Shown: positions 6,219 to 46,318, counted from the stretch's first letter. The stretch: DNA of 64,000 nt from Vicinamibacterales bacterium (GCA_025456345.1 JALOKU010000001.1:1-64000); one strand, 5' to 3'. The notes: generated by a model from the letters alone, not told the origin. Numbers and translations: made by a program.

Positions 6219-8491
6219 GCGGGCGCCCGTCTTTTCGGTTCACGGCGCTCGTCATCCTGGCGGCCCTGGCGATGCCGGCAGCGACGCCGGCGACCCTGGC
6301 CATCTCCGTCCAGCCTGGAAACCCGCCGTCCACGCGACCGTCGCGGGACGCGGCGCAGGCCGCGCGCCCGCAGCCGCGCCCGACGGAGCACCCGCCGCTG
6401 CCGTCCGCGTTGAACGACTACTGGATGGTTCCCCCGCCCGGCTGGACGCCCGCGCGTGCGGACGTGGTCGCGGCGGCTCGCGCACTCGCCCAGGCGGCCC
6501 GGCTGATGGACGAGGAGAAGTACGCCCAGGCGCTCACCTACATCAGGGCGTCGGCGCTGGCGGGCACGCCGCTCGCGGGGTACGCGACGTATCTGACCGG
6601 GCTCGCGCAACTCGAACTCGATCGGTTCGACGACGCGCGGCGCACCTTGACGGCGCTCGGTGCCGCGCGGCCGGCGGGGTTCCTCACCGAGGCCGCCATC
6701 CTGCAGCTGGCCGAGATCAGCACGACGCAGCGTGACTATGCCACGGCGGTCGCGCTCTACGACGAGGCGCTCACCCTGCAGCCCGAGTCTCCCGACGACA
6801 TCCTGCTGCGCCTCGCGCGGGCGGCATCGAACGCCGGCGACCGCGCCAGGGCCCTCGAGACCTACCAGGCGATCTACTACGACTGGCCGACCAGCGATGC
6901 CGCGGACGCTGCCGTGATCGAGATGCCGATCTCGGCGCTCGGTCCGGTCACCGCGGGCACGCCCCGGTTCGCGCGCGAACTGGCGCGGGCCGAGCGCCTG
7001 TTCACCGATCGCCGCTACGCCGAGGCCCGCGAGGCGTTCGAGGGCCTGGCCGCGGCGGCCACCGGCGACGAGACGGAGGTCGTGCAGCTGCGCATGGCCG
7101 AGTCGGACTACTTCCTGCGGCGGTACACCCGGGTCCGCGACGATCTCGCGCCGTTCCTCGAGCGGTCGGCCCGCCGCGCCGAAGCCCGATTCTTCTACCT
7201 GATGACGACGCAGCGCATCGGCAACCGCGATCAGTACATCGCGCTGACCCGCGCGCTGGTCGAGGAGTTCCCGTCCAACTCGTGGGCCGAGGAGGCGCTC
7301 AACAACCTGGCCTCCTTCCACATCGTCAAGGACGAAGACGATCAGGCGGACGCCGTCTTCCGGGAGCTCGTGACGCGATTCCCGTCCGGCAGGTACACGG
7401 CCCGCGCGATGTGGAAGGTAGGCTGGCTCGCGTACCGCCAGAAGCGGTATGCCGAGGCTGGCGACGTGTTCGAGCGTGCCGCCGTGGCGTTTCCCCGCTC
7501 GGACTACCGGCCGTCGTATCTCTATTGGGCCGCGAAAGCGCGGGAGCAGATCGGTGACGCCGCCGGTACGGACGAGGCGCTGCGGCTCGTCGTCACCGAC
7601 TACGCGAACTCCTACTACGGCCGGCTCGCCGCGAAGGCCCTGGCCGCGAAAGGGAGCGCGGTCCCGGCGTCGGGGCTCGTCACCAGGCCCCGCGCGGAGG
7701 CTGGGGCCGGCGGGGAGGCCGCGGCGCCGACCGCCGATCTCATCCGCTGGCTCATCTTCCTGGAGATGTACGACGAGGCCCTCGACGAGGTGCGGTTCGC
7801 CGAGCGCGCCTGGGGCACGTCGACGGCGCTCGCCGCCACGCGGGCATGGCTGCTCAATCGGACGGGCGAACTGCGTCCGGCCATCACCCTGATGCGGCGG
7901 ACGTACCCGCAGTTCCTGGCGGCGGGAGGCGAGTCGATGCCGCCCGAGGTGCTGTCGGTCATCTTTCCGCTGCAGTACTGGTCGCTCATCAGCACGCATG
8001 CCGCCGCGCACGGCCTCGACCCGTACCTGGTCGCGGCGTTGATCGCTCAGGAATCGACCTTCGACAAGGACATCGTGTCTTCGGCGAAGGCCATCGGATT
8101 GATGCAGATCATGCCGACGACAGGCCGCCGGTGGGCGAGGCGGCTTGGCATCCGGAACTACTCGACGCGGCGGCTGACTGCGGCCGACGTCAACGTCCGG
8201 ATCGGGACGGCCTACTTCGCGGACCTCATGAAGCAGTTCGGGAGCGAGCACGCCGCGCTGGCGTCCTACAACGCGGGCGAGAGCCGCGTGGTGCGCTGGC
8301 AGCGTGAACGGCCAGGCGTGCCGCGCGACGAGTTCATCGACGACATCCCGTTTCCCGAGACGCAGAACTACGTGCGCCGCATTCTCGGCACCGCAGAGGA
8401 CTACCGCCGGTTGTACGGAGCCCGCGAGAAGCCTCCCGGTCCGCCGAGAACTCCCGCCAGGCCGGCGCCGAAGCCTCCCGTCAGGAAGTAA
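6215..8491 (+). CDS. Soluble lytic murein transglycosylase with TPR repeats
   Basis: 758 residues with an N-terminal signal peptide (TALVILAALAMPAATPATLA), so periplasmic. Residues about 70-560 are TPR-like helical repeats (LDRFDDARRTLTALGAARP, YAEAREAFEGLAAAA, YAEAGDVFERAAVAFP), as in the Slt70 superhelix. The C-terminal SLT domain has the catalytic Glu near residue 613 in IAQEST, then GLMQIMP, ASYNAGE and the terminal TQNYVRRIL motif. It cleaves the MurNAc-GlcNAc bond of peptidoglycan to a 1,6-anhydro product. The GTG start overlaps the upstream stop (GTGA). The 3' end overlaps the convergent neighbour by 11 bp. Confidence 0.92.
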   Translation: MSGRPSFRFTALVILAALAMPAATPATLAISVQPGNPPSTRPSRDAAQAARPQPRPTEHPPLPSALNDYWMVPPPGWTPARADVVAAARALAQAARLMDEEKYAQALTYIRASALAGTPLAGYATYLTGLAQLELDRFDDARRTLTALGAARPAGFLTEAAILQLAEISTTQRDYATAVALYDEALTLQPESPDDILLRLARAASNAGDRARALETYQAIYYDWPTSDAADAAVIEMPISALGPVTAGTPRFARELARAERLFTDRRYAEAREAFEGLAAAATGDETEVVQLRMAESDYFLRRYTRVRDDLAPFLERSARRAEARFFYLMTTQRIGNRDQYIALTRALVEEFPSNSWAEEALNNLASFHIVKDEDDQADAVFRELVTRFPSGRYTARAMWKVGWLAYRQKRYAEAGDVFERAAVAFPRSDYRPSYLYWAAKAREQIGDAAGTDEALRLVVTDYANSYYGRLAAKALAAKGSAVPASGLVTRPRAEAGAGGEAAAPTADLIRWLIFLEMYDEALDEVRFAERAWGTSTALAATRAWLLNRTGELRPAITLMRRTYPQFLAAGGESMPPEVLSVIFPLQYWSLISTHAAAHGLDPYLVAALIAQESTFDKDIVSSAKAIGLMQIMPTTGRRWARRLGIRNYSTRRLTAADVNVRIGTAYFADLMKQFGSEHAALASYNAGESRVVRWQRERPGVPRDEFIDDIPFPETQNYVRRILGTAEDYRRLYGAREKPPGPPRTPARPAPKPPVRK

Positions 8492-10103
8492 TCAGCCTGT
8501 AGATCCTGATCTGGTTCCCCGACGCCACCAGCACCAGCCACGGCGCGGCGTTCAGGGAGGCCGCCATCTCGCCGCCCCGGCCTTCGTAGGCGTCGAGGTG
8601 GACGACGACGTGGCTCACGCCGAGTCGTAGGAGTCCGGCACGGGACCGCTCATCGGGGAATCCCCGGAGCGCGGCCGCAATGCCGGGATAGCTGGACGGG
8701 ACGAAGCCGCTGTAGCCGTTCACCAGCGGCTTCCAGTGTGCGGTGGAACTCAGGACGTACGGCGCGTTGCGGAGCACGGCCTCCGGCTGGAAGAACGGGA
8801 ACTCCGCCACGGCCCGCACCGACGGGTCATTGAGTGACTGGTAGAGCCGCGGGATGCCGTCGAACGGCCTGAAGGCGATCGGCGCGCGCAACGCCTCCAC
8901 GTTGACTGCCGCGACGAGGACGGCGACGGCCACGGGCCACCAGCGTTTCCCTCCATGCCGCGCGCGCAAGGCGCTCACGCCGAAGCCCGCCAGCACGGCC
9001 ACGGCTACGAGCGCGAGGAAGCCGAACCGGGCGGCGCCGCGAACGCCCTGCAGCAGCGGCAGCCACCGGTAGAGAAGGGCGTAGCCGGGGAGCGCTGGAC
9101 CGAACGACAGGGCAAGACCGGCAGCGCCAAACGCCGCGGCCATGCGGATGCGCGGGTCCCGCAGGCCGGGCTTCGCGGCGATCGCGTACCCGGCCAGCGC
9201 GAGCGCGGCCACGCCGGGGAAGAGCGCGGTCGAGCCCTCCAGGAAGCGATGGCTCCACGCGGCATAGTGCAGACGGCCGGCCGTCGACAGGTAGTCCCGC
9301 CAGGTCGAGGAGTAGAGCGCCACTTCGTCGAGGCTGCGCGTCAGTCCCTGCTCCCGCTGCGTGAGGTAGTACGGGTACAGGAACGGCGCGACCAGCGCCG
9401 CGGCAATGGCGGCCGCCAGCCCGAGCAGGGCGGCGGTGCGCGCCGGTGCCGGGTGCCGCCATTCGTTCACGCGGACGGCAACACCAACGGCTGCGGCCAT
9501 CGCGGTGAAGACCAGCAGGTAGTTCGACGTCAGTCCCTGGAGCGCGCAGGCCACACCGAGAAGGACGGCGTCCCGCGCGCGCCGCTCCACGAGCAGCCGA
9601 TCGAGGGCGAGCAGCACGACGGGCAGGAACTCCAGGTGCAGGGCCTGGAGATGGGGCAGCCGCGTGAGCGTGTGCGCGTTGAAGGCCAAGAGCGAGCCGG
9701 CGACGGCGCCGGCGGCGCTGCTGCCGGTCCAGCGTTTCAGCAGGAGCCACATCGCCCAGGCCGAGAGGGCGAGGCCTGCCATCACGAGCAGGTTGTACGC
9801 AAGCAGCGGCGAGCCGCCGAGCCAGAGGACGGGGGCCCCCATCAGGCCCTGCACCGTCATGTGCTCCGAAAAGGCCAGCGCGCGAGGCTCGGGATGGAAG
9901 ATGTTCGCGTCGAACAGGTGCAGCGGCGCGCGCGGCGCCTGGTAGGCGACCCACGCCACGATCCACTCGTTCAGCATCGCGTCGGCGTTGTCGTGGCGCG
10001 ACAGCACGGCCGGGGCCGTGGCCAGGGGCCACGTGTGCAGCACCGCCAGCGCGAGGCAGGCGGCTAGCGCTCCGGCGGCCAGGCGGCGATCTGAAACAGC
10101 CAC
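8481..10103 (-). CDS. Multi-membrane-span protein, GT-C glycosyltransferase-like
   Basis: 540 residues with roughly ten hydrophobic segments. An early extracytoplasmic loop, NADAMLNEWIVAW, matches the acidic loop position of GT-C polyprenyl-phosphate-sugar transferases. A C-terminal periplasmic part reads AEFPFFQPE, STAHWKPLVNGYSGF, then FPDERS. The neighbour at 10064 has the same architecture and the same C-terminal motifs, so these are tandem paralogues. The start overlaps the neighbour's end by 40 bp, which suggests one transcript. The substrate cannot be read from sequence. A lipid-linked sugar donor is family inference. Confidence 0.7.
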   Translation of the reverse strand: MAVSDRRLAAGALAACLALAVLHTWPLATAPAVLSRHDNADAMLNEWIVAWVAYQAPRAPLHLFDANIFHPEPRALAFSEHMTVQGLMGAPVLWLGGSPLLAYNLLVMAGLALSAWAMWLLLKRWTGSSAAGAVAGSLLAFNAHTLTRLPHLQALHLEFLPVVLLALDRLLVERRARDAVLLGVACALQGLTSNYLLVFTAMAAAVGVAVRVNEWRHPAPARTAALLGLAAAIAAALVAPFLYPYYLTQREQGLTRSLDEVALYSSTWRDYLSTAGRLHYAAWSHRFLEGSTALFPGVAALALAGYAIAAKPGLRDPRIRMAAAFGAAGLALSFGPALPGYALLYRWLPLLQGVRGAARFGFLALVAVAVLAGFGVSALRARHGGKRWWPVAVAVLVAAVNVEALRAPIAFRPFDGIPRLYQSLNDPSVRAVAEFPFFQPEAVLRNAPYVLSSTAHWKPLVNGYSGFVPSSYPGIAAALRGFPDERSRAGLLRLGVSHVVVHLDAYEGRGGEMAASLNAAPWLVLVASGNQIRIYRLITS

Positions 10104-11719
10104 ACGGGGTCCTCGAGGCGGATCGGCCGCAGGTACTCGCGGTACTGCTCGATCCGCGCCTTCAGTTCGACAACGGCGCGGCGGTCGTAGAGGTTCAGGT
10201 GGAAGATCACGTACTGCGGGCGCAGTTGCCTGAGGATGGCGAACGACTCGGGATTGGGAAATGAGCTGAGCGGCACCACCATGGCGCGGAACTCGGGCGG
10301 AATGTGGTCACTGTAGCCGTTGATGAGCGGCCGCCAGTGCGCCGTCGAGTAGAGCATGTACTCGGAGTGCCGGGAGAAGTCCATCCGCAGGTAGAAGAAC
10401 GGGAACTCCGCCACGGGGCCGTATGGCCACTTGCGCAACGACTCGTAGGCGGGCGCCACAGGCCGCGCCTCCACCATGAACAGGGGCACGACGGAAACGT
10501 CGGCCATCGCCAGCGCGACAAGCGCCGCCGACGCCAGCGCCGCGCGGCGGCACCGCGCCACGAGCGTCTGCACGGCGAACCCGCCCAGCACGCCCAGGGC
10601 GAGCACGACGACGAGGCCGAGGCGTGACGGCGCCCGAAGCCACGAGAACACCGGGACGATCCGGTAGAGCCAGGCGTACAGGCCGGCGTCCGGGCCGAGC
10701 GACGACCAGAGGGCGACCACGGCCACGCTCGCGTAGAACCAGAGGTGATCCCGCCGCGCGGCCTCCGCCCGGAAGCGCCGCACGCCCGCAAGCCCGGCCA
10801 GGCCGAGCAGGCCCGTCACCGTGACCACGACGCCCGGGAACAGCACCTCTCCCCACGGGTCGAGGTACTGCAGCACCCAGCGGTGCGCCCGCGCCCCCGA
10901 CGCGACGTACGAGCGCCAGCCGGCGGACCAGCGCCGCGAGTCGTCGAGGGACCGGACGAAGCCTTCCCCCTGCTGCAGCTCGATGTACGGCCAGAAGAAG
11001 GGCAGCACGATCGCGATCGACAGCGCGGCGGCGAGGGCGGCGCCGGCCCAGAAGCGCCAGCGGCGCCAGAGGCCACGCGACACGCCGTAGAACACCATGC
11101 CGTACCCGACGAGCAGGCCCGCGAAGATCCCGTAGTAGCCGCACGAGAGCGCCTGCGCCGCCAGCGCCAGGCCGAGCACCGACGCGCGGCCAGCCGTCTG
11201 CATCTCGACGTAACGGTGCAGCGCGAGCAGCGAGTAGGGAATGCCCGCCGTCATCAGCAGTTGAATGTGCGGGATGTGCGAGAGCACGTACGGACAGAAC
11301 GCGTACGAGACCGCCGCGACCGCGGCGCCACCGCGATGGCCCGTCAGATGCCGGACGAGGCTGTAGGTTCCCGTGAGCGCGAGCACGAAGGCGAGAAACA
11401 CCACCGCGTTGTGCGCAAAGTACGGATTGCCGCCGCTCGCCCAGTAGAACGGCACGGCGAGCGCGCCGGCGCCGATGTTCGCCTCGGAGTACGCGAGCGT
11501 GCCGCGGTGCGGGTAGAAGATGTTGGCGTTGTAGAGGCCCCGCGGATCCACCACGAGCGTGCGCGCCACCCACGCCACGTTCCAGATGCTGAACTGGCCG
11601 TCGCCCGAATCGATGCGGCCCGCGGACCCGCCGCGTACCACGAGCGGCCAGGTCATCACCGCGGTGATGAGGAGGGCGGCGGCAACGACCAGGACGGCCT
11701 CGCCGGCACGGGAGCGCAT
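10064..11719 (-). CDS. Multi-membrane-span protein, GT-C glycosyltransferase-like (paralogue)
   Basis: About 551 residues from the ATG at 11717-11719 (MRSRAGEAVLVV); an ATG at 11737 is an alternative. It has ten or more hydrophobic helices and the loop DSGDGQFSIWNVAWVART followed by NANIFYPHRGTLAYSEANI. The downstream paralogue has the matching ANIFHPEPRALAFSEHM. The C-terminal block AEFPFFYLRMDFSRH, STAHWRPLINGYSDH, SSFPNPESF matches too. It is divergent from the 11746 gene, with only 26 bp between the start codons. Probably an inner-membrane transferase acting on lipid-linked sugars. The precise reaction is unknown. Confidence 0.7.
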   Translation of the reverse strand: MRSRAGEAVLVVAAALLITAVMTWPLVVRGGSAGRIDSGDGQFSIWNVAWVARTLVVDPRGLYNANIFYPHRGTLAYSEANIGAGALAVPFYWASGGNPYFAHNAVVFLAFVLALTGTYSLVRHLTGHRGGAAVAAVSYAFCPYVLSHIPHIQLLMTAGIPYSLLALHRYVEMQTAGRASVLGLALAAQALSCGYYGIFAGLLVGYGMVFYGVSRGLWRRWRFWAGAALAAALSIAIVLPFFWPYIELQQGEGFVRSLDDSRRWSAGWRSYVASGARAHRWVLQYLDPWGEVLFPGVVVTVTGLLGLAGLAGVRRFRAEAARRDHLWFYASVAVVALWSSLGPDAGLYAWLYRIVPVFSWLRAPSRLGLVVVLALGVLGGFAVQTLVARCRRAALASAALVALAMADVSVVPLFMVEARPVAPAYESLRKWPYGPVAEFPFFYLRMDFSRHSEYMLYSTAHWRPLINGYSDHIPPEFRAMVVPLSSFPNPESFAILRQLRPQYVIFHLNLYDRRAVVELKARIEQYREYLRPIRLEDPVWLFQIAAWPPER

Positions 11720-35143: not shown

Positions 35144-36469
35144 CTACATGAATCCCAGCCGCTGAGGAGAGAAATTCGCCAGGTTCGGGAAGATCCCCGC
35201 CATGTCGGCGTCGGACACGCCGAACCAGCCGCCCAGCGTCGCGGCGTACTGATCCAGCGACGTTGTGGGGATCCAGCTTCCACGGTCGCCGGCGTCATCC
35301 GGGCCCGACAGCGTGTGGGTGGGGAATGTGCCGTATGTGTCGCCGCCCCGGACCGCGCCTCCGACCACCAGCTGGTGGCCGCCCCATGCGTGGTCGGTGC
35401 CGACGTTGGCATTGGCGTTGCCGGTCCGGTTGAACTCGCTTTCGGTGAACAGCGTGACCCGATCGGCAGCGCCGCGCGCCTCGAGCGTGGCGACGAAGGC
35501 GCCGATGGCGCCGTCGACGGTGGCCAGCAGCTGCTGGTGGTTGCCGAGCAGGTTCTCGTGGTTGTCGAAGCCGCCCATGCCGGCGAAGAAGATCTGCCGG
35601 TTCAGGCCGAGCGCGCCCTGCACGGCGATGATCTGGGCGACCTGCGCGAGCTGCTGGCCGAGCCCGCTGTTGGGGAAGGCCACCGGCAGCGGCGGCGCGC
35701 CGCCGAGGGCCGCGTCGATCTCCTGCGCCGAGCGTATCGCGTCGTTCAACACGCCGTTGGCGGCGCTGACCAGCTTGAGGCCGCTGTCGAAGGTCAGCAG
35801 CTTCTGCAGCGAACCAAGGCGGGCGGCCATCGCGGTGTCGTCGCCAAACGTGGTGAGCCCGAACGACGACGCGCTCGAGAAGTTGATGCCCCGGGTGGTC
35901 GGCCCCGCGAGGAACAGCGAGCTTCCGCCGTTGACGGAGATGCCCGGCGGCAGGGTGCCCGTGTTGGCCGCGGCCGCCACGTCGCCAATCCGCCCTCCCC
36001 ACCCCGTGCCGCCGCCGTTCGGATCGGAGCTCTGCCACTGCTGCGTCTGGTCGGAATGCGAATACAGGTTCTTCGGCAGCGGCGTGCGGTTCAGGGTCGC
36101 CTTCGTGGTGGGTTGAAACAGCGTGCCCACGTTGAACACCACGGCAGCCTGCCGGCTGTTGAACAGCCGCTGGACGTTCCCGAGCGCGGGATGAAGGCCG
36201 TACCCGCTGCCGCCGGCCGGCAGTAACGCCCCCTGCCCCAGCGCCACGGGCCCGCGCATGGCCTGGTAGGCCTGGTAGCGGGAATCGATGGGCACGATCA
36301 TGTTGTTGCTGTCGTGGCCGCCGAACAGGAACACACAGACGAGCGCCCTGTGGTCGGATGCCGATTGTGCATAGGCCGACACCATGCCCAGCCGGCCGAG
36401 CTGGGACGCGAGACCGGCCGCTCCCAGGTAACAGCAGTTCTTCAGAAAGGCTCGACGCTCTCGTCTCAC
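35144..36469 (-). CDS. DUF1501 protein, Tat-exported
   Basis: 441 residues. It starts with a twin-arginine signal, RRERRAFLKNCCYLGAAGL, cleaved after AYAQS. The body is of the DUF1501/alkaline-phosphatase-like class: VFLFGGHDSNNMIVP, then GFDNHENLLGNHQQLL, TLFTESEFNRTGN, GTDHAWGGHQLVVGGAVRGG. The conserved Asp/His sites (GGHDSNN, GTDHAWG) look metal-binding. DUF1501 genes are regularly found directly after DUF1800 genes, as here (22 bp). The function of the pair is not established. An extracytoplasmic hydrolase or matrix role is inferred. Confidence 0.88.
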   Translation of the reverse strand: MRRERRAFLKNCCYLGAAGLASQLGRLGMVSAYAQSASDHRALVCVFLFGGHDSNNMIVPIDSRYQAYQAMRGPVALGQGALLPAGGSGYGLHPALGNVQRLFNSRQAAVVFNVGTLFQPTTKATLNRTPLPKNLYSHSDQTQQWQSSDPNGGGTGWGGRIGDVAAAANTGTLPPGISVNGGSSLFLAGPTTRGINFSSASSFGLTTFGDDTAMAARLGSLQKLLTFDSGLKLVSAANGVLNDAIRSAQEIDAALGGAPPLPVAFPNSGLGQQLAQVAQIIAVQGALGLNRQIFFAGMGGFDNHENLLGNHQQLLATVDGAIGAFVATLEARGAADRVTLFTESEFNRTGNANANVGTDHAWGGHQLVVGGAVRGGDTYGTFPTHTLSGPDDAGDRGSWIPTTSLDQYAATLGGWFGVSDADMAGIFPNLANFSPQRLGFM

Positions 36470-36491
36470 GATGGGCTCCTTGTTCAGCGGT

Positions 36492-39170
36492 TCAGCGGTC
36501 CACCTGCGACTGTGCGGCCACCATGGTCAGGTACAGGGCGGTGCGCGCGCGTTCGAGCGCGTTGGTTGAAGGGGTCACCCTGACGGCCGCGATCATCTCG
36601 GCGCGCTGTTCGGTCGAGACGCGGCTGCCCATGAAGAGACGGACACAGTAGTCCACCAGCGCGGCCGGATCGTTCGCGCGGCTCGTGAAGGGGCTGTAGT
36701 CGATGGCCACGTCGCTGCCGAAGTAGCTGCCCAGCAGGGCGCCCACGAAGTTGGCCCGCACAAGCGCCGTCACCGACGTGAGGATCTGAAACTCAGGGCC
36801 GACCAGCGGCAGGCCGTTCGCGCCGGCGGTGCCGCGCACGCGGAACCCCGGAGAGTAGTAGCTGAACACCGACGGCGGGTAGAGGACCTTCTGCCCCATC
36901 TCCTCGGCCTTGTCGCTCATGAACGGATGGTCGGTCACCGTGGCGTCGAGGGCACGCAGCTGCGACACGATGAACAGGGCGGGCTCGGCCAGCTTGCCCG
37001 ACGCCGGCATCGAGAGGCTCGCGTCGGGGTGGGCGAGAATGGCCCGGACCACCGCCGAGAGGTCGCCGCGCACGCCGCCGCCGTTGTCCGCGAAGACCGA
37101 GGCGACGGACGCGACGTAGTCGGGGCTCGGATTCGACGTCACGAGCTGCTGGATCAGCTGGCGGCCGATGAAGGGCCCTACGTTGGCGTGCGCGAACAGC
37201 AGGTCGAGCGCCTGGTCGAGATCCTCCAGCGCGCTCTGGCCTGCAGGGAACGTCGTGCCGAGAATCGTCTTCTCGCCCGAGTCGTGGTAGCGCTCCACCA
37301 CTTCCATCGGCACCTTGTAGTTCTCCGGCGACAGCCTGGTGGGGACCGTGGCGGGGTTGCCGTCGCCGAAGGTCCATCCCGTGAAGACACGGGCCAGCTC
37401 CTTGACGTCGGTCTCGCTATAGACCGGCATCTCCTGCAACGCCGGGTCCAGCATCGGCGTCCCGTCCGGGTTCAGGCGGGGGATGCCGGTCGTCAGCAGC
37501 TGCAGCAGCTCGCGCGCGTAGTTCTCGTTGGCGGGCGTGCCGGTCACCTGCTGGCTGCGGTTGTTCAGCATGTTCAGGTAGCGCCCCATCGCCGGATTCA
37601 GCGTCATCGCGCGCATGAAGCCGCGGTAGTTGCCGAACGCGCCGTCCATGAGGACCCGTTGATAGGTGACCATGGCGGACGCGTTGTCCACGGCGACCGC
37701 GGAGACGACCCAGATCTTGTGCAGCGCCCATGCGACGCGCTGGCGCAACTGGTCGGGGCCGGTGAGCGCCAGCCGCATGAAATGCTCCTGTGTCGCCTCG
37801 ACGGGCTCGCTGTAGAGCGCGTTGGGATAGACCGACATCTGCGCGTTGAACTGTTCGGACAGGAACGCGTCAGCGCCGATCGTCTTCACGCGGTCGATGT
37901 CGTCGGGCCTTGGTCCCCACGTGGCCTGGCGCAGGAGGCGGAACGCCGCCAGCGTGCCGGCGTCGGCGTCCGGCGGCGGGCCCTCGGGGCTGGCGCTTGC
38001 CTCGGCCGATCGCGCGCTCTCGCCACCCGCGTTGAAGGCCGTCACCTTGAAGTAGTAGGTCTGCCCGTTCTCGACGCTGCCATCCGCGTAGGCCGGCTCG
38101 GTGAGGCCCGTCGCAACAGGCGTCTGGCCCTGGCGGGTGGACGTCGTGCCTCGATACACGTTGTAGCCGTTGGCGCCGGCCACGCCGGCCCACGAGAGCG
38201 TGACCTTCCGGTCGCCCGCCCTGGCGGTGAGCCCGGTGGGCGCCGCAGGCGGCGCCATCGGGGTCGCCACGGCGACATCCGAGGGCGGGCTGTCGCCCCC
38301 GGGGTTCCAGCCGGTCACGCGATAGTAGTACGTGGTGCCGTTGGTCAGCCCGGCGTTCTTGAACGTGATGCCGGTGACACTGGCAATCGGCGGCCCGGCG
38401 AACGTCCCCGTGGTCGCGCGGAAGATGCGATAGCGCGTCGCGCCAGTCACCGGGGTCCAGGAGAGCTGCACCCGGGCGTTGCCCGCCGTGGCGGTGAGGC
38501 TCGCGGGACCGGCCGCCGGCGGCGGCGGTTGCGGCTTCGCCCATGCGGCATTCGACAGGCCGCTCGACGATCCCTCGGCCGTGGCGCGTACGCGGTAGTG
38601 GTAACTGGTCCCGTTGCTGAGGCCGGTGTCGGTGAAGGCGGGTGCCGCAACGCCGCTGGCCAGCTCCGTCAGCTGGCGCTGTCCAGACACTCGCCGGTAG
38701 ACGGTGTAACGGGTGGCGCCGGCAGACGGCTCCCAGTTGAGCGCGACCTGCCGGTCGCCCCGCGTGGCGGTGAGATTGGCGGGCGGCGCCAGCGGAATGG
38801 CGCTGGCTACTCCCGACGACGGCCCGTTCCCCCCGCGCGTGTAGGCGGCCACTTTGTAGGAGTACGTCGTGCCGTTGATCAGGTTGGTGTCGAAAAACGT
38901 CACGCCCCCCACGCTGGCGATCGGCGACTCGTCGAACTGGCCGTTTGCCGTTCTGAACACCCGGTAGCCCTTCGCGCCAGCGACCGGCGACCATGTCAAC
39001 CGGACGCGCGCGTTGGCGGCGGTCGCACGCAGCGAGGATGGGGCCTCGGCGGGCGGAGGTGGCGGTGGCGACACCGGCCTGGTGGCAGCGCCCATCGGCG
39101 CGCCAAGAGCCAGCGTCAGCAGCAGAGTCGTTTGGGCGACGAAGCGCCCGACGCACTTCAGTCGATTCAC
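36492..39170 (-). CDS. DUF1800 protein with N-terminal fibronectin type III repeats
   Basis: 892 residues. A signal peptide (FVAQTTLLLTLALGAPMGAA) precedes four FN3 domains of about 85-95 residues each (PSSLRATAANARVRLTWSPVAGAKGYRVFRT; NLTATRGDRQVALNW; SLTATAGNARVQLSWTP; GLTARAGDRKVTLSWAG). The DUF1800 domain follows from about residue 410 (FRLLRQATWGPRPDDIDRV, NENYARELLQLLTTGI, ELARVFTGWTFGDGNP, YHDSGEKTILGTTFPAG). The GTG start has GAGGTG upstream. FN3 repeats suggest binding of polysaccharide or cell-surface partners. It is exported and transcribed with DUF1501. No enzymatic activity is known to me for DUF1800. Confidence 0.88.
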   Translation of the reverse strand: MNRLKCVGRFVAQTTLLLTLALGAPMGAATRPVSPPPPPPAEAPSSLRATAANARVRLTWSPVAGAKGYRVFRTANGQFDESPIASVGGVTFFDTNLINGTTYSYKVAAYTRGGNGPSSGVASAIPLAPPANLTATRGDRQVALNWEPSAGATRYTVYRRVSGQRQLTELASGVAAPAFTDTGLSNGTSYHYRVRATAEGSSSGLSNAAWAKPQPPPPAAGPASLTATAGNARVQLSWTPVTGATRYRIFRATTGTFAGPPIASVTGITFKNAGLTNGTTYYYRVTGWNPGGDSPPSDVAVATPMAPPAAPTGLTARAGDRKVTLSWAGVAGANGYNVYRGTTSTRQGQTPVATGLTEPAYADGSVENGQTYYFKVTAFNAGGESARSAEASASPEGPPPDADAGTLAAFRLLRQATWGPRPDDIDRVKTIGADAFLSEQFNAQMSVYPNALYSEPVEATQEHFMRLALTGPDQLRQRVAWALHKIWVVSAVAVDNASAMVTYQRVLMDGAFGNYRGFMRAMTLNPAMGRYLNMLNNRSQQVTGTPANENYARELLQLLTTGIPRLNPDGTPMLDPALQEMPVYSETDVKELARVFTGWTFGDGNPATVPTRLSPENYKVPMEVVERYHDSGEKTILGTTFPAGQSALEDLDQALDLLFAHANVGPFIGRQLIQQLVTSNPSPDYVASVASVFADNGGGVRGDLSAVVRAILAHPDASLSMPASGKLAEPALFIVSQLRALDATVTDHPFMSDKAEEMGQKVLYPPSVFSYYSPGFRVRGTAGANGLPLVGPEFQILTSVTALVRANFVGALLGSYFGSDVAIDYSPFTSRANDPAALVDYCVRLFMGSRVSTEQRAEMIAAVRVTPSTNALERARTALYLTMVAAQSQVDR

Positions 39171-39533: not shown

Positions 39534-40400
39534 TCAACGGATGTCGAGGCCCCTGGCGGCGCGCTGTCCGCCGCTGCTGTCCGTGCCGGCTGCGAACGAC
39601 GCCCCGCGACGCGTCCGCGCCCACTCGTTGTCGTGCCACCAGGCCTGCACCTTGCGCATGGCCGCCTGGTAGCTGCCGCCATGCCGGCGGCACCGATAGC
39701 CGTACCGGGCCGCGCGGCTGGCAGGCAGCGGCGACCCGTCGTAGTCGGCGACGGCGTGAAACAATTCGAACGAGGGCCGCGGCAGCGACAGCCCGATCCG
39801 GATCATCGCGACGACGTCCTCCGGGCTGATCCAGGCGCCGGGGTCCGAATCCGCTTCGTGCGGGGTGACGCTCCCGAGGCGCAGGCATGTCACGGTCAGC
39901 CCGAACCGCTCGTGGTACAGACGGCACAGGGACTCGCCGTGGATCTTGCTCGCGGCGTAGTGGCTGTCCGGGCGGGGGGCATCCGCCTCGTCGAACCGAT
40001 CATCGCGGCGGTACATTCCCATCACGTGCATCGAGCTGGCGAAGACGAAGTGCGTGACGTCGGCTTCGACGGCGCTGCGAAGCAGATTGACGACCGCGAT
40101 CGTATTGTCCGCCACCAGGCTGGCCGCATCGGCCTCCTTCGAAGCGGCGGCGAGGTGCACGATCGCATCCACGCCGGCGACGATGCGTTCGCAGTCGCTG
40201 ACATCACAGAGGTCGGCCCGATCGTCGCCGCTGCCGGTGCGATCGGCGAGCCGGAGCTCGACGTCCCCGGCCCGGAGCAGCGGTACGATCAACGAGGCGA
40301 CTGCGCCGTTGGAGCCGGTGACCAGCACGCGGCGGACAGCGGCCTCGGGTGCGGCAGGCCCGCCCCGTCCAACGATCCGCCGTATCCAGGACGTGGTCAT
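39534..40400 (-). CDS. NAD-dependent epimerase/dehydratase (extended SDR)
   Basis: 288 residues. The Rossmann start is VRRVLVTGSNGAVASLIVPLL, with GVDAIVHLAAAS, the SSMHV segment and the catalytic YAASK. LRLGSVTP follows. The compact size and FHAVADYDG resemble uronate dehydrogenase-like SDRs more than large sugar epimerases. The glycine motif GSNGAVA ends in Ala where Gly is usual. The ATG overlaps the stop of the kinase/glycosyltransferase gene (ATGA), so it is the last gene of the six-gene modification/export operon. A role in making or oxidising a sugar for that system is inference. Confidence 0.8.
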   Translation of the reverse strand: MTTSWIRRIVGRGGPAAPEAAVRRVLVTGSNGAVASLIVPLLRAGDVELRLADRTGSGDDRADLCDVSDCERIVAGVDAIVHLAAASKEADAASLVADNTIAVVNLLRSAVEADVTHFVFASSMHVMGMYRRDDRFDEADAPRPDSHYAASKIHGESLCRLYHERFGLTVTCLRLGSVTPHEADSDPGAWISPEDVVAMIRIGLSLPRPSFELFHAVADYDGSPLPASRAARYGYRCRRHGGSYQAAMRKVQAWWHDNEWARTRRGASFAAGTDSSGGQRAARGLDIR

Positions 40401-42229
40401 GCGGTGTCGGCGCCTCCAGGGGGCGCTCCGGGCGCCGTGCCGGCCTGCCTGGCCCGCTGGAGGGCCTTGCGAAAGGCGCCCAGCGTGGTGGCCCGCAGCT
40501 CTTCGCGGGTCTTCTGCGCCGTCATGTTCCCCCCGTGGCGGCGCACCTGGAGCGTTATCTGCTCGAGGCGCTCAACCTTCAGCCCGCTCTCCTTGATCCG
40601 CGTGTACCAGTCGGTGTCTTCGGCGAACCGCAGCGTCACGTCGAAAAGCCCGATCGCCTCGAAGGCCTCCCGCCGGTACAGCCCGGCGCCGATGTAGTGC
40701 GGGAACGACTCCGCCGGGTTGCCTTGAGGATGGAAGGCTCCCGACACCGGGTCCAGGATGAGCATCTGGGCGTGGCCGCGGACCACCATCAGGTCCGCGT
40801 CGGCTCGAAGCGCCTCGGCCAGGCTGACCAGCGTGCCTTCCGGCCAGAGGTCGTCCACGTCCAGGAACGCCAGCAGCGCGCCCGAGGCGTCGCGGATGCC
40901 ACGGTTGCGGGCAGCAGACGGGCCGGCGTTGTCCTGTTTGAAAAAGCGGACGTCGACGGGCAACCGGCCGGCCACATCCTGCACGTCGTCGGTCGACCCG
41001 TCATCCACGACAATGATCTCGAGGCACGGGTAGTCCTGCGCCAGGACATTGCGGACGGCTTCCTCGAGGAAGCGCGCGCCGTTGTACACAGGGATGATCA
41101 CGGAAATGAGCGGCGGCGCCGTGGATGTCCCTCGAGCGGTCCGGGCCCTGCCCGCCATCGCGTGCAGGTCCGGGTCGGACTTCGCCACGGTGTCGCGAAT
41201 CACGGCAACCACGCGGTCCCGGTCCGAACCGAGCACCAGTTCGAAGCCCGGCAGCCGATCGATCATGGATTCGATGAACGCCTGCGTGCGCTGTCCGGCG
41301 TAGGGCAGTTGCGAGAGCGTCGTGAAGGCCCCGGCGCGGCGAAGCGTCATGGCGTCGGCCGGGTGGAGCCGAGTCTCGACCTGAGGTGCCACGCGCGGGG
41401 TCACAACGGTTCGCAGTCGCATCCGCGGCGCGATCTGCGGCGCCAGGCCCGGATAGAGCTGCAGGACGGCTTTCTCGCCATCGGCGGCTGGATGGTGCCG
41501 TACAAATGGCGCCAGTTGCGGGAAGTGCGCGACATCGCCGGCATTCAGCTTGGCGGTGCTGTACAAGCTGTACACCGCCGGCTCCGGATCGAGGCGCACC
41601 GCGACGTAGTCGTCGCCTGCGTAACGCATCCCCCTCACCAACGCAGCGAGCGCGGTGCTGGACTTCCCGACACCCCCCTTGCCCGTGATGAGCATGGCCC
41701 CGTCGGCGGTGCCGACCGCCGCCGCGTGCAGCAGCTGCGCCCCTGAGCGCTCGAGCGCCCAGTGCAGCAGCGTGCGCAGCGGAGACGCCTTCGACCAGAA
41801 CGGCAGGTCGTCTGCGTTCTGCAGCCAATGCACGCCGACGCCGGTGGCGAGATCGAGGCAGTTCACGGAGTACTCCACCCAGTGGAACGCCGTGCGGTAG
41901 CGCGGGCTCGTGAAGCCCCAGAGATCCCCGCGGTCGGTGAAATCGTGCCGGGTGCAGGGCGGCGGGGGCATCCGCACCCCAGTCGACCGGCCGTCCCAGA
42001 TGTGGAGGACCAACTCGGCTGGCGTGTCGCCCCCGCTGACGAGGTGCCGGAGGCCCGGCAGGAGGTCGCCGACCAGGCGCGGCCCGGCGAACACCAGGTC
42101 GATGCGGACCTCAGCCACGGTGAGCGGGACCACCTCGCAGCCAGCCGCGCGCTCGGCGGCAAGGGCCGCGTCGAGGGCGCGGCAGTAGAAGTCCTGCTGT
42201 TCGGCTTCGCTCTTGCGTGCTGGGTCCAT
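40397..42229 (-). CDS. HprK-like kinase fused to a GT2 glycosyltransferase
   Basis: 610 residues in two modules. Residues 1-350 resemble HprK-related kinases: LLHAAAVGTADGAMLITGKGGVGKSS contains the P-loop (about 182-191), and AGDDYVAV supplies the acidic pair. Residues from about 372 are a GT-A family-2 glycosyltransferase: ISVIIPVYNGARFLEEAV, VVDDGSTD, AARNRGI, LDVDDLWPEG as the DxD-type motif, and AEDTDWYTRI. HprK-like proteins phosphorylate a Ser; GT2 enzymes use nucleotide sugars. I see no frameshift or stop between the modules. ATG 42229 has AGGATGAG upstream, four bases after the ABC exporter stop. Acting on one shared substrate is an inference from fusion. Confidence 0.85.
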   Translation of the reverse strand: MDPARKSEAEQQDFYCRALDAALAAERAAGCEVVPLTVAEVRIDLVFAGPRLVGDLLPGLRHLVSGGDTPAELVLHIWDGRSTGVRMPPPPCTRHDFTDRGDLWGFTSPRYRTAFHWVEYSVNCLDLATGVGVHWLQNADDLPFWSKASPLRTLLHWALERSGAQLLHAAAVGTADGAMLITGKGGVGKSSTALAALVRGMRYAGDDYVAVRLDPEPAVYSLYSTAKLNAGDVAHFPQLAPFVRHHPAADGEKAVLQLYPGLAPQIAPRMRLRTVVTPRVAPQVETRLHPADAMTLRRAGAFTTLSQLPYAGQRTQAFIESMIDRLPGFELVLGSDRDRVVAVIRDTVAKSDPDLHAMAGRARTARGTSTAPPLISVIIPVYNGARFLEEAVRNVLAQDYPCLEIIVVDDGSTDDVQDVAGRLPVDVRFFKQDNAGPSAARNRGIRDASGALLAFLDVDDLWPEGTLVSLAEALRADADLMVVRGHAQMLILDPVSGAFHPQGNPAESFPHYIGAGLYRREAFEAIGLFDVTLRFAEDTDWYTRIKESGLKVERLEQITLQVRRHGGNMTAQKTREELRATTLGAFRKALQRARQAGTAPGAPPGGADTA

Positions 42230-42233
42230 GCGC

Positions 42234-43979
42234 TCATCCTGACGTGGCGGGCGGATGCCCCGCGGCGGGCTGGGCGGCCGGGTGCAGCCGGCCGTCGCGC
42301 AGCTGGTAGCTGCGGCGGACGAACCCGATGACCCTCGGGTCGTGGCTGACGACGAGGATTGCGGGGGAGTCCGGGAGCTGCCGCAGGGCGGGCAGGATTC
42401 TGCCGACCACCGCGGCATCGAGATGATTGGTGGGCTCGTCGAGCACGAGCAGCCGCGGCCGGCGCAGCACCGCCCGCGCCAGCGCCAGGCGCTGGCATTC
42501 GCCGCCGGACAACGTGATGCCGGCCTCCCCGAGCAGCGTGTGGTAGCCCTCGGGCAGGTCGCGGATGAACTCGTCTGCGAAGGCTCCCCGTGCCGCGGCG
42601 GCAATGGCGTCGTCGGTCGCGCCGTCGTGCCCGTAGGCAATATTGTCGCGGATCGTACCGTGGAAGAAGGCCGCCCGCTGCATCACGACGCCGATGCCGC
42701 GGCGGAAGTGCTCGAGATCCAGCTCGGCGTATGGCGTTGCGTCCGCCAGGGCAAGCCCCGAATCGGGCTTGAGCATGCCGAGCAGGACGTTGAGCAGCGT
42801 TGTCTTGCCCGAACCGTTGGGCCCGACAATCGCGACGTGTTCGCCGGGTGCGAGATCGAAGTCGATGCCGCGCAGCACCGGCTCGCCGCCGTAGCTGAAC
42901 GTGACGTCGCGCAGCGCGAGCCGGCCGGTGAAGTCGATCCGCGCCGACCCGCCGTACGGCGCCTCCACACGCTCGCTGTCGATGGCGGCGAGGGTGCCCA
43001 GCGACACCCCGGCCGCCACAAGGTCTGCCGTCCCCCGCGTCAGCGCCAGGACCGAGTTGCTGAGCATGCTCGCGCCGACGTAGAACGACACGAACTGTCC
43101 AAGCGTCATCAGGCCGTGCATGACCTCGAGCCCGCCGGCGACGAGCAGCCCGATTCCGAGGACGCCGACGACGGTGCCCTGCAACTGGCCGTGCACGGCA
43201 TAGCTCCAGGCCATCCGCTCGCCGCTCGCCGCCAGGTCGCGGACCACCTGCTGCTGGCGCGCGAGCTCCTCGCGCTCGAAGGCCTGGGTGCGCGTCAGCT
43301 CCATCTGGCGCAGGACGAACGACACGCCCCGATTGAATCGCCCGAAATCATCCTGGAACGCGGCGACGTCGCGGCCGACGCGCCGCTGGGTCCAGCGCGC
43401 GGCGAGCCACACGACGGGCGCCGCCAGGCTGGCCAGCGCAACGAGCGACCAGCTCAGGACCATGAGCAGCACGAACAGCGCGGCGGCCGTAAATGCCGCC
43501 GGCAGCAGGCCGGAGAGCATCGATCCGACCAGCACGTCGAGCCGCTCGGTGTCCTGGACGACCTGGTTCTGAAGCCGGTCCACGTCGGCGCGCGTGCGCG
43601 TGGCGCGCTCGATCCGGTAGAGCTTCTCGATCAGTTCCTCGCGCATCTGCGCGACCGTGTTCTTGGTGAGGCGGACGACGTAGCGGCGGAGGGCCAGCGC
43701 GCCTGCGGCCGCGGCAACCCGCACGGCGACGATGCCGGCGCCAATCCATGCCAGCAGGACCGGATCGGACTGGGGAATGGCGGTGTCGATGGCCAGCCGC
43801 ACCAGCACCAGCGTGGGAACCATCGAGGCGGCCGTCAGCGCGGCGGCCAGCGAGTAGACCACGAGCCGGCGCGTGTGCGGTGTGAAGTACCTCGCGAAGT
43901 AGCGCCACGCCTCCGGCGACCCCCACCCGAGCCGGCGCGCCCAGTGCTTCGAGGCTCCGGCGGCGTGGCTGGCAGGCAT
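42234..43979 (-). CDS. ABC exporter (membrane and ATPase domains fused)
   Basis: 581 residues. Residues 1-330 form the six-helix exporter domain (YSLAAALTAASMVPTLVLVRLAI). The NBD has Walker A GPNGSGKTT, signature LSGGECQ and Walker B LLVLDEPTNHLD. D-loop and a His-containing switch (VVSHDPR) are present. All catalytic residues look intact, so it should work as a homodimer. There is no N-terminal C39 peptidase domain. The start is two bases after the nucleotidyltransferase stop. Context suggests export of the product made by the flanking RRE, kinase and glycosyltransferase proteins. Lasso-type exporters have this architecture. Confidence 0.9.
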   Translation of the reverse strand: MPASHAAGASKHWARRLGWGSPEAWRYFARYFTPHTRRLVVYSLAAALTAASMVPTLVLVRLAIDTAIPQSDPVLLAWIGAGIVAVRVAAAAGALALRRYVVRLTKNTVAQMREELIEKLYRIERATRTRADVDRLQNQVVQDTERLDVLVGSMLSGLLPAAFTAAALFVLLMVLSWSLVALASLAAPVVWLAARWTQRRVGRDVAAFQDDFGRFNRGVSFVLRQMELTRTQAFEREELARQQQVVRDLAASGERMAWSYAVHGQLQGTVVGVLGIGLLVAGGLEVMHGLMTLGQFVSFYVGASMLSNSVLALTRGTADLVAAGVSLGTLAAIDSERVEAPYGGSARIDFTGRLALRDVTFSYGGEPVLRGIDFDLAPGEHVAIVGPNGSGKTTLLNVLLGMLKPDSGLALADATPYAELDLEHFRRGIGVVMQRAAFFHGTIRDNIAYGHDGATDDAIAAAARGAFADEFIRDLPEGYHTLLGEAGITLSGGECQRLALARAVLRRPRLLVLDEPTNHLDAAVVGRILPALRQLPDSPAILVVSHDPRVIGFVRRSYQLRDGRLHPAAQPAAGHPPATSG

Positions 43980-43981
43980 GC

Positions 43982-45157
43982 TTAATTCCGTGCCCCGGCG
44001 GCACCCGCGGTCGTCCGCCGCCGGAGGCCCTGCAGCACGCGCCGTGGTATCTCCCGGCGGCCGGACAGCCCCCAATGGAAACGCAGGAAATGCGTGAAGG
44101 CGCCGGCCGTCCGAAACGGCCCGCCGATCCCCGGCAGGCGGGGGAATTCCGCCAGCGCGTCCAGCAGCGGGCCCATGGCCGACTCGTACCGCAAGGGCTT
44201 CAGGAGCGTCCGCAGTTCCAGGCGTTCTCGCAATGTGGGCTGGACGCCCGCCAGGCGGGCCAGGGCCGATGGCGGAACGTCGGCCGCGAACTGCCGGGTC
44301 AGATACGCGAGGCCGAGGTGGAGCCGGTACGTGAGATGCCGCTCGGTGGCGAAACCGACGAGCCAGTCCCAGTCGATCGGCTGGCGGCCGTGTCGGAGGA
44401 TCATCACGGCGTCCGGAATCCAGCGGACCGGCGGCTCGGGATTCCAGCGCAGCCCGTGGATGATGGTGAGCAGCAGCAGCCGGGAAGGATCGGGCGCCAG
44501 GATGTCGCGGCCGAGGAAACGGAACGGCTGCGCGGTCTGCCAGAACACGTCGTCCGCCGTGTCGTCGCAGAGGTCCACCAGCATATGCCAGTGAAGGTCG
44601 ACCTCTTTCTGGCCCGGCGCCTTGAAGCCGACCGCATGGCGGAACCGCTTGACGTCGCCGTCGAGGGTACGCCACGGCCGGTACCCCAGTTCGGCCAGGA
44701 TCTGCGATGCGGCCTCGGCCTGGTCCCCCGGCACCGCGAAGTCGACGTCGGACATGGGGCGCACGCCGAGGTTGCCGTAGTAGCAGAGCGCCAGCGGAGC
44801 GCCCTTCAACGCCATGACCCGCAGCCCGGCCGCGAGGAACCGATCGAGGACCGGGCGGGTGCCGTCGAAGAGGCGGTGGTTCTTCGCCCACGCGAGGCGA
44901 TAGGTGCCCTTGAGACGGCCCGTCAGCGCGTCCTGGTGGCCGAGACGGCGCAGGTTCTCGTAGAGGAGCGGGATCAGCCGGAAGACCTCCCGATCGAAGT
45001 CCCGCGACATGTCCACCATGGCCAGCCACGCCTCGTAGGCGCGCAGCGCATCCGGACCGTCCCCCAGCGCGCCACGAAGCACGAGAGACTGTTCGCGGCT
45101 GGGGAAGAGGCCGTGTCGATCGGCGTCGTGCGGCGCTCGAGGTCCTGTCCGGCCCAT
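43982..45157 (-). CDS. Nucleotidyltransferase family protein (PF14907-like)
   Basis: 391 residues. Core: RVMALKGAPLALCYYGNLGVRPMSDVDFAVP, the G...R.m.DvDf signature of the 'uncharacterised nucleotidyltransferase' family, with KEVDLHWHM as the second acidic strand. The C-terminal half is helical. Members often lie beside PqqD-like, HprK-like and asparagine-synthase-like genes in peptide-modification clusters. The chemistry in those settings is largely unproven. ATG 45157 shares one base with the stop of the GT2 gene (TGATG); the upstream part of the frame is shadow. Confidence 0.82.
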   Translation of the reverse strand: MGRTGPRAPHDADRHGLFPSREQSLVLRGALGDGPDALRAYEAWLAMVDMSRDFDREVFRLIPLLYENLRRLGHQDALTGRLKGTYRLAWAKNHRLFDGTRPVLDRFLAAGLRVMALKGAPLALCYYGNLGVRPMSDVDFAVPGDQAEAASQILAELGYRPWRTLDGDVKRFRHAVGFKAPGQKEVDLHWHMLVDLCDDTADDVFWQTAQPFRFLGRDILAPDPSRLLLLTIIHGLRWNPEPPVRWIPDAVMILRHGRQPIDWDWLVGFATERHLTYRLHLGLAYLTRQFAADVPPSALARLAGVQPTLRERLELRTLLKPLRYESAMGPLLDALAEFPRLPGIGGPFRTAGAFTHFLRFHWGLSGRREIPRRVLQGLRRRTTAGAAGARN

Positions 45158-45852
45158 CACCCGGGTGCTCCTTCCCCGGCGCGCCGCTTGCGGTCGAGGG
45201 CCCCCCTGATCGCTCTCAGGTAGTCGGCGGGCGAACTGCCGTCCCGCCGCACGGTGTTGGCATCGTGGATGCGCCGCTGCAGCACCACCGCGTCGATTGT
45301 CTCGATGCGCAGGCCGGCCGCCTCGGCGCGGGAGAGCCACTCGATCATCTCGCCGACCTTCAGCGACTCGTCGAAGGGCCCGACGCGTTCGAACGAGGCG
45401 CGCCGGACGAGGAACGTGCCGGCGAAACGGGCCACCGAGGGCTCGGGGTCGAAACGCATGCGCCCCGCCAGGCGGTCGGCGAGTTCGGGCGAGACAAACT
45501 GCGACAGCGCGGCAAACACCCCGTCGGATTGCGGACGGGCCTCCAGGTGGGCCAGGCGGACCGCCAGGCCTCCTGGCGCCCAGACGTCGTCCGCGTCAAG
45601 AAACGCGAGGTACGGCGCCCGCGCGCGGGCGATCCCCGCGTTGCGCGCCGCGGAAATCCCGCCGTTCGGCTGCCGGTAATACTCGATCGGCCCTCCCTGG
45701 CTGCGGATGACATCGGCGCTCCCGTCGGTCGACCCGTCGTCGATGACGATGATGCGCGCCGGCGGGGGAGCCTGGGCCAGCGCGCTTTCCAGCGCGGCGG
45801 CGATGTAGCGGGCCGTGTTGAAGCACGGGATGACGAGGTCGACGTCCGGCAT
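45157..45852 (-). CDS. Family 2 glycosyltransferase (short)
   Basis: 231 residues. VDLVIPCFNTARYIAAALESAL, IIVIDDGSTDGS, PNGGISAARNAGIARARAPY and FLDADDVWAPGG (DxD-type site) are standard GT2/GT-A motifs. The C-terminal acceptor half is shortened (GPFDESLKVGEMIEWLSRAEAAGL). Its catalytic region resembles the GT2 half of the kinase fusion four genes on, so the operon encodes two related glycosyltransferases. It lies 25 bp after the PqqD-like gene and is coupled to the nucleotidyltransferase. Donor and acceptor are unknown. Probably a soluble or peripheral cytoplasmic enzyme. Confidence 0.88.
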   Translation of the reverse strand: MPDVDLVIPCFNTARYIAAALESALAQAPPPARIIVIDDGSTDGSADVIRSQGGPIEYYRQPNGGISAARNAGIARARAPYLAFLDADDVWAPGGLAVRLAHLEARPQSDGVFAALSQFVSPELADRLAGRMRFDPEPSVARFAGTFLVRRASFERVGPFDESLKVGEMIEWLSRAEAAGLRIETIDAVVLQRRIHDANTVRRDGSSPADYLRAIRGALDRKRRAGEGAPG

Positions 45853-45877
45853 GGCTGCAGCCCCCGCGTGCCCCGCG

Positions 45878-46318
45878 CTACTCCGCGGGCGTGCGCGGCT
45901 TCACCGGCCAGCCTTCCTCGCCCACGTCGTGAATGGGATCGAGCAGCAGCAGGTCCTGCATGTCCGAGTAGACCTTGAGCTCCGGCGGCGCATAGGCCTG
46001 GCCGGAGACGCCCGGTGCGTCGCTGGTCAGGATATCGTCCGGACCGGCCTCGCGGATGAGGCCCTCGCGCCTCAAGGCCTCGAGGAAGGCCTCCATATCG
46101 CTCCGGGCGCGCTCGGGCGCCAGGCCGAAGCCGTCGGTGAGCGCCGCCAGAGCGGCATCTGCCCTGACCTGCTGCTCCACGCACTGCCACAGGTAGGATC
46201 CAATCCCCTCGCTGCTGTAGTAACGGCCCTTCTCGAGGTTGATCACGACCAATTCGCCGTCGATTACCTCGCTGACGGCGTTTGGCGCGTTGATGACCCA
46301 CTCGGCGCGGCTGGACAT
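45878..46318 (-). CDS. PqqD-like (RRE) protein with leader-like C-terminal tail
   Basis: 146 residues. Residues 6-90 match the PqqD/RRE winged-helix fold (VSEVIDGELVVINLEKGRYY, SYLWQCVEQQ, FLEALRREGLI) that binds RiPP leader peptides. After a flexible linker, residues 109-138 form an odd tail. It begins YAPPEL, fitting the Y-x-x-P-x-L core of lasso leader peptides, and continues DMQDLLLLDPIHDV and EEGWP. Plain PqqD ends before such a tail. The ATG has GAGG five bases upstream. It is the first gene of the six-gene operon. The tail could be a built-in substrate, a docking peptide for the kinase or transporter, or a pseudo-leader. Which one cannot be told here. Confidence 0.8.
   Translation of the reverse strand: MSSRAEWVINAPNAVSEVIDGELVVINLEKGRYYSSEGIGSYLWQCVEQQVRADAALAALTDGFGLAPERARSDMEAFLEALRREGLIREAGPDDILTSDAPGVSGQAYAPPELKVYSDMQDLLLLDPIHDVGEEGWPVKPRTPAE

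Follow-up and report, generated by a model that had tools for sequence, protein, structure and literature searches.

An operon encoding an RRE protein with a conserved leader-like tail, an HprK-like kinase, glycosyltransferases and an exporter, and its relatives in many phyla

The operon and its proteins

We describe an operon of six genes in a Vicinamibacterales bacterium (GCA_025456345.1), at positions 39534-46318 on the minus strand of JALOKU010000001.1:1-64000; this whole stretch of 64,000 nucleotides is referred to as the window, and positions given without a locus are those of the window. The operon had been put forward in a note made from the sequence alone (the original prediction), and gene calls with Pfam and NCBIfam matches confirm its genes, their coordinates and strand, and the junctions of 25, -1, 2, 4 and -4 bp. 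The first gene (45878..46318) encodes a protein of 146 aa that combines a RiPP recognition element (RRE; RiPPs are ribosomally synthesised and post-translationally modified peptides) with a C-terminal tail, YAPPELKVYSDMQDLLLLDPIHDVGEEGWP, and this tail, which is conserved across many phyla and starts like a peptide leader, is our main concern. The RRE domain (PqqD family, PF05402, E=9.6e-14) occupies residues 1-~92 and is separated from the tail by a variable linker. The earlier label of PqqD/RRE protein is correct as to PF05402 but understates the protein, as the hyper-conserved tail was overlooked.

The second gene (45157..45852) encodes a stand-alone family 2 glycosyltransferase (GT2) of 231 aa (PF00535, E=8.8e-30) and the third (43982..45157) a nucleotidyltransferase (NTase)-fold protein of 391 aa (PF14907, E=1.9e-38). 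The fourth (42234..43979) is for an MsbA-like ATP-binding cassette (ABC) exporter in which only the membrane and ATPase domains were matched (ABC_membrane PF00664, 2.4e-15; ABC_tran PF00005, 9.4e-33), with no match to a C39 peptidase domain; its top NCBIfam matches, MsbA_rel and MsbA, are under cut-off. The fifth open reading frame (ORF; 40397-42229) has two domains in one polypeptide, an HprK-like kinase with its own conserved N-terminal domain (aa ~1-360, 41150..42229; Hpr_kinase_C 2.2e-6, HprK_rel_B 4e-8) and a GT2 (40397..41149; PF00535 1.7e-28 at aa 376-483). The last gene (39534..40400), which we treat as accessory, encodes an extended short-chain dehydrogenase/reductase (SDR) resembling NAD-dependent epimerases (Epimerase PF01370, 1.4e-25). 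The PF00535 matches in two proteins and the PF01370 match thus bear out the two GT2 enzymes and the SDR of the original prediction.

The kinase retains H168, the P-loop GKGGVGKS and D206-D207, all conserved across 49 homologues, and its profile matches the HPr kinase structures 1jb1 and 1ko7. The AlphaFold model of the HprK-GT2 fusion has a mean pLDDT (predicted local distance difference test) of 90, and among its top 50 Foldseek matches there are GT2 structures only and none for the N-terminal domain of the kinase. A search of the PDB by sequence gave no relative for protein P0003.

The tail of the RRE protein

Relatives were collected by a 35-residue tail scan of GTDB species genomes, which found 203, with 80 kept, and 81 proteins were aligned. 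The ~30 C-terminal residues are the most conserved part of the RRE protein, with the near-invariant consensus [FY]xxPxLxxYxDMQDLLLLDPIH[DE]VDExGWP. P112, D119, D127 and P128 are invariant, and M120, L124, L126, I129, H130, V132, G136, W137 and P138 are each conserved in at least 90% of the 81 proteins, percentages that are upper bounds because the loci were picked with patterns from the tail itself; position 109 is F, Y or W in 80/81 and position 114 is mostly L or V. The start of the tail, YAPPEL (residues 109-114; 45977..45994), is the counterpart of the [YW]xxPx[LVIFA] leader motif bound by the RREs of lasso peptides and of linear polyphosphorylated peptides (LPPs), and the conserved segment that follows, DMQDLLLLDPIHDVGEEGWP (residues 119-138; 45905..45964), is predicted to be exposed. 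Divergent tails are found at L036 (DMDDMLALDP), at L038 (DMADLLALDPPHPG) and in small AT-rich cyanobacterial genomes (DAQELLLADPIHEVKEETGW); none was found in viral contigs.

The tail is the C-terminus of the RRE protein in every locus read but one. That locus, L050 (genome G180, contig C1042), has the sole stand-alone case, a short separate ORF at 1640-1840 that carries the tail without an RRE domain and sits ~110 bp upstream of a gene for a FAD/GMC-type oxidoreductase.

There is no invariant Ser or Thr in the tail, position 118 being T or S in 68/81 sequences and otherwise A, E, N, R or H, and for lack of conservation we rejected a tail Ser/Thr as the target of the kinase.

The AlphaFold model of the RRE protein, made with an alignment of 81 rows, has the TbiB1/lasso-B1 fold (pLDDT 88), and Foldseek matches it to leader-bound TbiB1 (5v1v/5v1u) with TMt, the target TM-score, at 0.86-0.91; a Foldseek search against viral structures gave no match. 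Residues 101-120 have a mean pLDDT of 90-92 with a short strand at 115-117, as in leader-bound RREs, and in residues 121-146 the pLDDT falls to 56-65, the DMQDLLLLDPIH part being left unplaced. AlphaFold thus places the YxxPxL-type start of the tail with confidence, a placement read from pLDDT and secondary structure.

In LppB, D70 hydrogen-bonds the leader Tyr (PMC13381572), and residue 74, its counterpart here, was chosen from the LppB structure as an independent check. D74 is present in 6/13 proteins with Y/W109 in the tail and in 1/67 with F109 (Fisher p=3.7e-5, uncorrected for kinship), and the cases that combine D74 with Y/W109 are drawn from at least three labelled phyla. In a tree of 83 columns, with low deep support, the RREs with the tail are nearly one group within their class, at 2 label changes between tail-bearing and tail-less as against 19.4 in shuffles.

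The cassette in related genomes

We count 80+ loci with the fusion of tail and RRE; their labels name about 17 phyla, and single labels may be wrong because most of the records are metagenome-assembled genomes (MAGs). Cassette counts are from profile searches over the 46 loci having at least 8.5 kb of downstream DNA: HprK and GT2 are each present in 46/46 and the PF14907 NTase in 45/46, with all three found jointly in 45/46. GT2 is usually there in 2-3 copies per locus, and the SDR family of the operon is in 9/46. ORF clustering over all loci brings out the gene families of the operon again, the genes being mostly adjacent and on one strand, and the RRE-tail gene adjoins HprK in most loci. The grouping exceeds chance: all 46 usable loci, which come from many phyla, have these genes clustered. 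The suggestion that the six genes act together therefore stands, in that they form one conserved unit across phyla, without a lasso cyclase or B2 protease, and are clustered in related genomes rather than scattered. The original prediction overlooked the spread across phyla, and also the fusions of RRE and HprK described below.

Fusions of HprK and GT2 occur in 17/85 loci, with some of those in Bacteroidota being ~850 aa. Locus L111, in an Acidobacteria MAG, has RRE-GT2-GT2-NTase-ABC-HprK/GT2-SDR, which is the order of the operon plus one GT2. The Crinalium plasmid pCRI9333.04 has RRE-NTase-HPr kinase-FkbM-GT2, and more GT2, an NAD-dependent oxidoreductase, NTase and ABC genes are nearby. The distribution is patchy, as samples from three phyla show: 13/396 genomes in Acidobacteriota, 21/292 in the cyanobacterial phylum and 7/301 in Chloroflexota. 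Some genomes have two or three RRE-tail genes (L202, on contig C72 of G1138, with copies ~11 kb apart; and G857), which suggests paralogous cassettes. Many loci hold or adjoin several genes for glycosyltransferases, sulfotransferases, SDRs and epimerases.

Two kinds of fusion in cyanobacteria tie the RRE and its tail to the kinase. In genome G857, locus L197 has at 8171-10120, on the minus strand, an ORF of 649 aa with the structure RRE-tail-RRE-HprK, in which the tail is internal; the RRE profile matches at 40-177 and weakly at 185-250, and HprK at 289-648 (E=1e-92). A tail placed inside the chain speaks against release of a C-terminal product. Small AT-rich cyanobacterial genomes of 1.6-2.1 Mb have a kinase of ~500 aa that ends in an RRE-like domain, beside the NTase and RRE-tail genes. 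The loci L188-L196 are from such genomes, which are probably Prochlorococcus-type; their divergent tail, Y[NSD]DAQELLLADPIHEVKEETGWTPEKDS, is without the docking Pro, and they lie amid other glycosyltransferase genes.

The genes flanking the operon itself appear unrelated to it, with DoxX/DoxD, Gfo/Idh and ApbE upstream and DUF1800/DUF1501 downstream. Directly downstream, at 35144-39170 on the minus strand, there is a gene for a DUF1800 protein that contains fibronectin type III repeats, and then one for a DUF1501 protein.

Lasso genes and a substrate peptide

There is no Asn-synthase-like macrolactam cyclase (PF00733) among the operon genes. In the genome as a whole, which is 90.8% complete, PF00733 gave one strong and two weak matches, all on other contigs, and B2 protease (PF13471) gave none, in agreement with the earlier statement that the operon lacks cyclase and B2. 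PF13471 over cut-off is absent from 33/45 cassette-bearing genomes; in those 45 a B2 gene lies within ~12 kb of the cassette at L067 and L085 only, and most of the other PF13471 matches fall on contigs whose length differs from that of the cassette contig. A phmmer search of the related loci with the Asn synthase of this genome matched L091 only. The placement of PF00733 and PF13471, in this genome and in related loci, led us to reject a lasso cluster with its genes just outside the operon, and the cassette is not one that always stands beside complete lasso genes. At L067 (~5190-6580), in a Bacillota MAG, the lasso-type B2 gene has its own HprK and NTase and is a few kb upstream of the RRE-tail cassette. 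What the operon has of a lasso cluster is a B1-type RRE, with a TbiB1-like fold and with lasso_PqqD hidden Markov models (HMMs) as best NCBIfam matches, below cut-off.

A discrete precursor gene was also sought and rejected, as none emerged from clustering of small ORFs, from a test for enriched motifs or from reading through the window. In ~80 loci, clustering over about 10 kb found no recurrent small-ORF family, and the leader motif is not enriched near cassettes (79 on the same strand, 80 on the opposite strand and 90 in shuffled sequence). The LPP-type motif Y..P.[VIL]L.H had 0 matches in small ORFs of related loci, and the LPP-type precursor motif 0 in the six frames of 36.4-50 kb of the window. 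No peptidase was found among the six genes or the recurrent families of related loci, no dedicated signal peptidase I (SpI) profile having been run. The sole leader-like sequence is thus the tail fused to the RRE. The original prediction was of a peptide or protein that is modified and exported without lasso folding. Cyclase-free phosphopeptides are indeed known, as LPPs (PMC13381572), and so is hexosylation involving PsmN (PMC9266682), but no substrate peptide was found here, and nothing supports the nucleotidylated product also proposed.

Comparison with known systems

LPPs are known experimentally to be made by a set of RRE, HprK, NTase and MsbA proteins without a cyclase (Popov et al. 2026, PMC13381572), encoded by lppA-K-B-S-D-N and described from Bacillota. 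The cassette shares with them the RRE, HprK-like kinase, NTP transferase and MsbA-like exporter and the absence of a macrolactam cyclase, although the ABC gene is less conserved in related loci, and the [Y/W]xxPx[LV] motif bound by the LPP RRE has its counterpart in the tail; our loci are also often amid polysaccharide genes. However LPP clusters have separate precursors, with the motif YxxPxVLxHQxIxFETxxS, and an SpI-like (SipW-type) leader peptidase, whereas in the cassette the RRE carries the leader-like tail as a fusion, and neither precursor nor such a peptidase was found. The LPP RRE lacks this tail, and LPPs are from Bacillota as against the about 17 phyla, and the near-universal GT2s, of the cassette.

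The phosphorylated and glycosylated lasso peptides, paeninodin (PadeK) and pseudomycoidin (PsmK/PsmN), also involve an HprK-like kinase and an NTase homologue, acting on a peptide delivered by a related RRE (PMC9266682). PsmN, which is annotated as a nucleotidyltransferase, is required for hexosylation of phospho-Ser. The cassette differs in having no lasso cyclase, B2 or precursor, and in the scores of its RRE with the lasso HMMs being under NCBIfam cut-offs. It fails defining features of both systems and is for this reason set apart from them; judged by sequence, what is new is the leader fused to the RRE and the near-universal GT2s, with no precursor or leader peptidase found.

There is weak similarity of the kinase and the PqqD-like protein to the HPr-rel-A system (TIGR04352/TIGR04353), but both are far below the equivalog cut-offs (19.3-35.9 bits as against 200, and 19.6 as against 35). 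RREs associated with GT2 (PF00535) are reported in the RRE-Finder work, though as RRE-glycosyltransferase fusions, and the accessible portions of the two papers (PMC7470986, PMC12710340) do not mention a leader-like RRE tail or an HprK/NTase cassette. The latter paper has 21% of PF05402 proteins exceeding the size of a discrete RRE without another domain, and the RRE-tail proteins may belong among these. A search of the open-access literature, with subscription papers and preprints outside it, gave no description of the tail sequence or of the cassette; what it gave for the gene combination was limited to studies of lasso peptides, LPPs and RRE mining, and for Prochlorococcus with PqqD to incidental mentions.

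Proposed function

We suggest, at what we judge to be even chances, that the operon encodes an RRE-scaffolded pathway of phosphorylation, glycosylation and export in which, unlike in the otherwise similar LPP and phosphorylated lasso systems, the leader is permanently fused to the recognition protein. The [FY]xxPxL start of the tail would dock in the RRE cleft, either within one chain or between the chains of a dimer, and DMQDLLLLDPIHxVDExGWP would then be held out as a fixed surface on which the HprK-like kinase and its partners dock. By analogy with LppK the kinase would phosphorylate an acceptor, and by analogy with PsmN the PF14907 protein and GT2 enzymes would build a sugar decoration on or near the phosphate, with the SDR supplying or modifying the sugar and the MsbA-like exporter moving the conjugate out; the order of these steps, the function of the tail and the export are what we infer. 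The acceptor may be a glycan or lipid instead of a peptide. A more specific form, offered tentatively, is that RiPP recognition machinery has here given up separate peptides: the RRE would have taken over the leader and kept it as a permanent activator. The HprK, PF14907 and GT2 proteins that it assembles would then modify a carrier or an acceptor other than a peptide, and the product would be an exported phosphoglycoconjugate, made in about 17 phyla, picocyanobacteria among them.

Several points weigh against this proposal. Docking was judged by pLDDT and secondary structure alone, and the prediction does not separate docking in cis (same chain) from docking in trans. Residue 74 ranks only 7th among RRE columns by raw mutual information with residue 109, and the covariation is therefore supporting but not decisive. 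The docking Pro is lost in some relatives (picocyanobacterial-type tails, L141 and L143), so that the docking motif is not universal. The ABC family of the operon is found in 30/46 loci and was not seen in 16, and the gathering of loci by the tail motif inflates both apparent invariance and co-occurrence.

A different possibility, which we think rather improbable, is that the precursor is the tail, as a leader with an unusually conserved core fused to its RRE. It would be phosphorylated or glycosylated and then freed by a housekeeping protease, and the resulting small molecule, nearly invariant, might be a cofactor, a signal or a glycopeptide. The tail does open with a lasso/LPP-type leader motif and run into a hyper-conserved segment, it is a separate short ORF upstream of the oxidoreductase gene in G180, and an exporter is present. 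However LppK phosphorylates Ser and not Thr or Tyr (PMC13381572), and the tail has no invariant Ser or Thr; no peptidase recurs in the cassette, the RRE-tail-RRE-HprK protein has the tail inside its chain, and RiPP cores are normally variable.

It is less probable again, and in our view unlikely, that the true substrate, a discrete peptide or protein, is encoded elsewhere in the genome or is too divergent to be recognised, and that it displaces the tail, which would serve as an autoinhibitory pseudo-leader. Classical RREs do work on separate precursors, and the second RRE-like domain on the kinase in picocyanobacterial-type genomes could bind another partner, but neither the ~80 loci nor the window gave a recurrent small ORF or an enriched leader motif, and conservation of the tail over so many phyla exceeds what autoinhibition needs. 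An ordinary surface-polysaccharide locus, with the RRE protein a vestigial passenger and the kinase acting on a sugar or regulator, would fit the glycosyltransferase, sulfotransferase, SDR and epimerase genes in and around many loci, and the further glycosyltransferase genes around the picocyanobacterial-type ones, but is very unlikely given that the RRE-tail is the most constrained part and adjoins HprK in most loci, and that two kinds of fusion join RRE domains to the kinase.

Significance

RREs serve as beacons for peptide natural products, on the assumption that there is a separate precursor nearby. This assumption would be called into question by a widespread cassette in which the only recognisable leader belongs to the RRE. 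For engineering, the RRE-tail cassette would be a natural system with a fused leader, and it would open a concrete route to the roles of PF14907 proteins and HprK-like kinases outside lasso clusters. Its presence in the small AT-rich cyanobacterial genomes, if these are Prochlorococcus-type as is probable, would add ecological weight.

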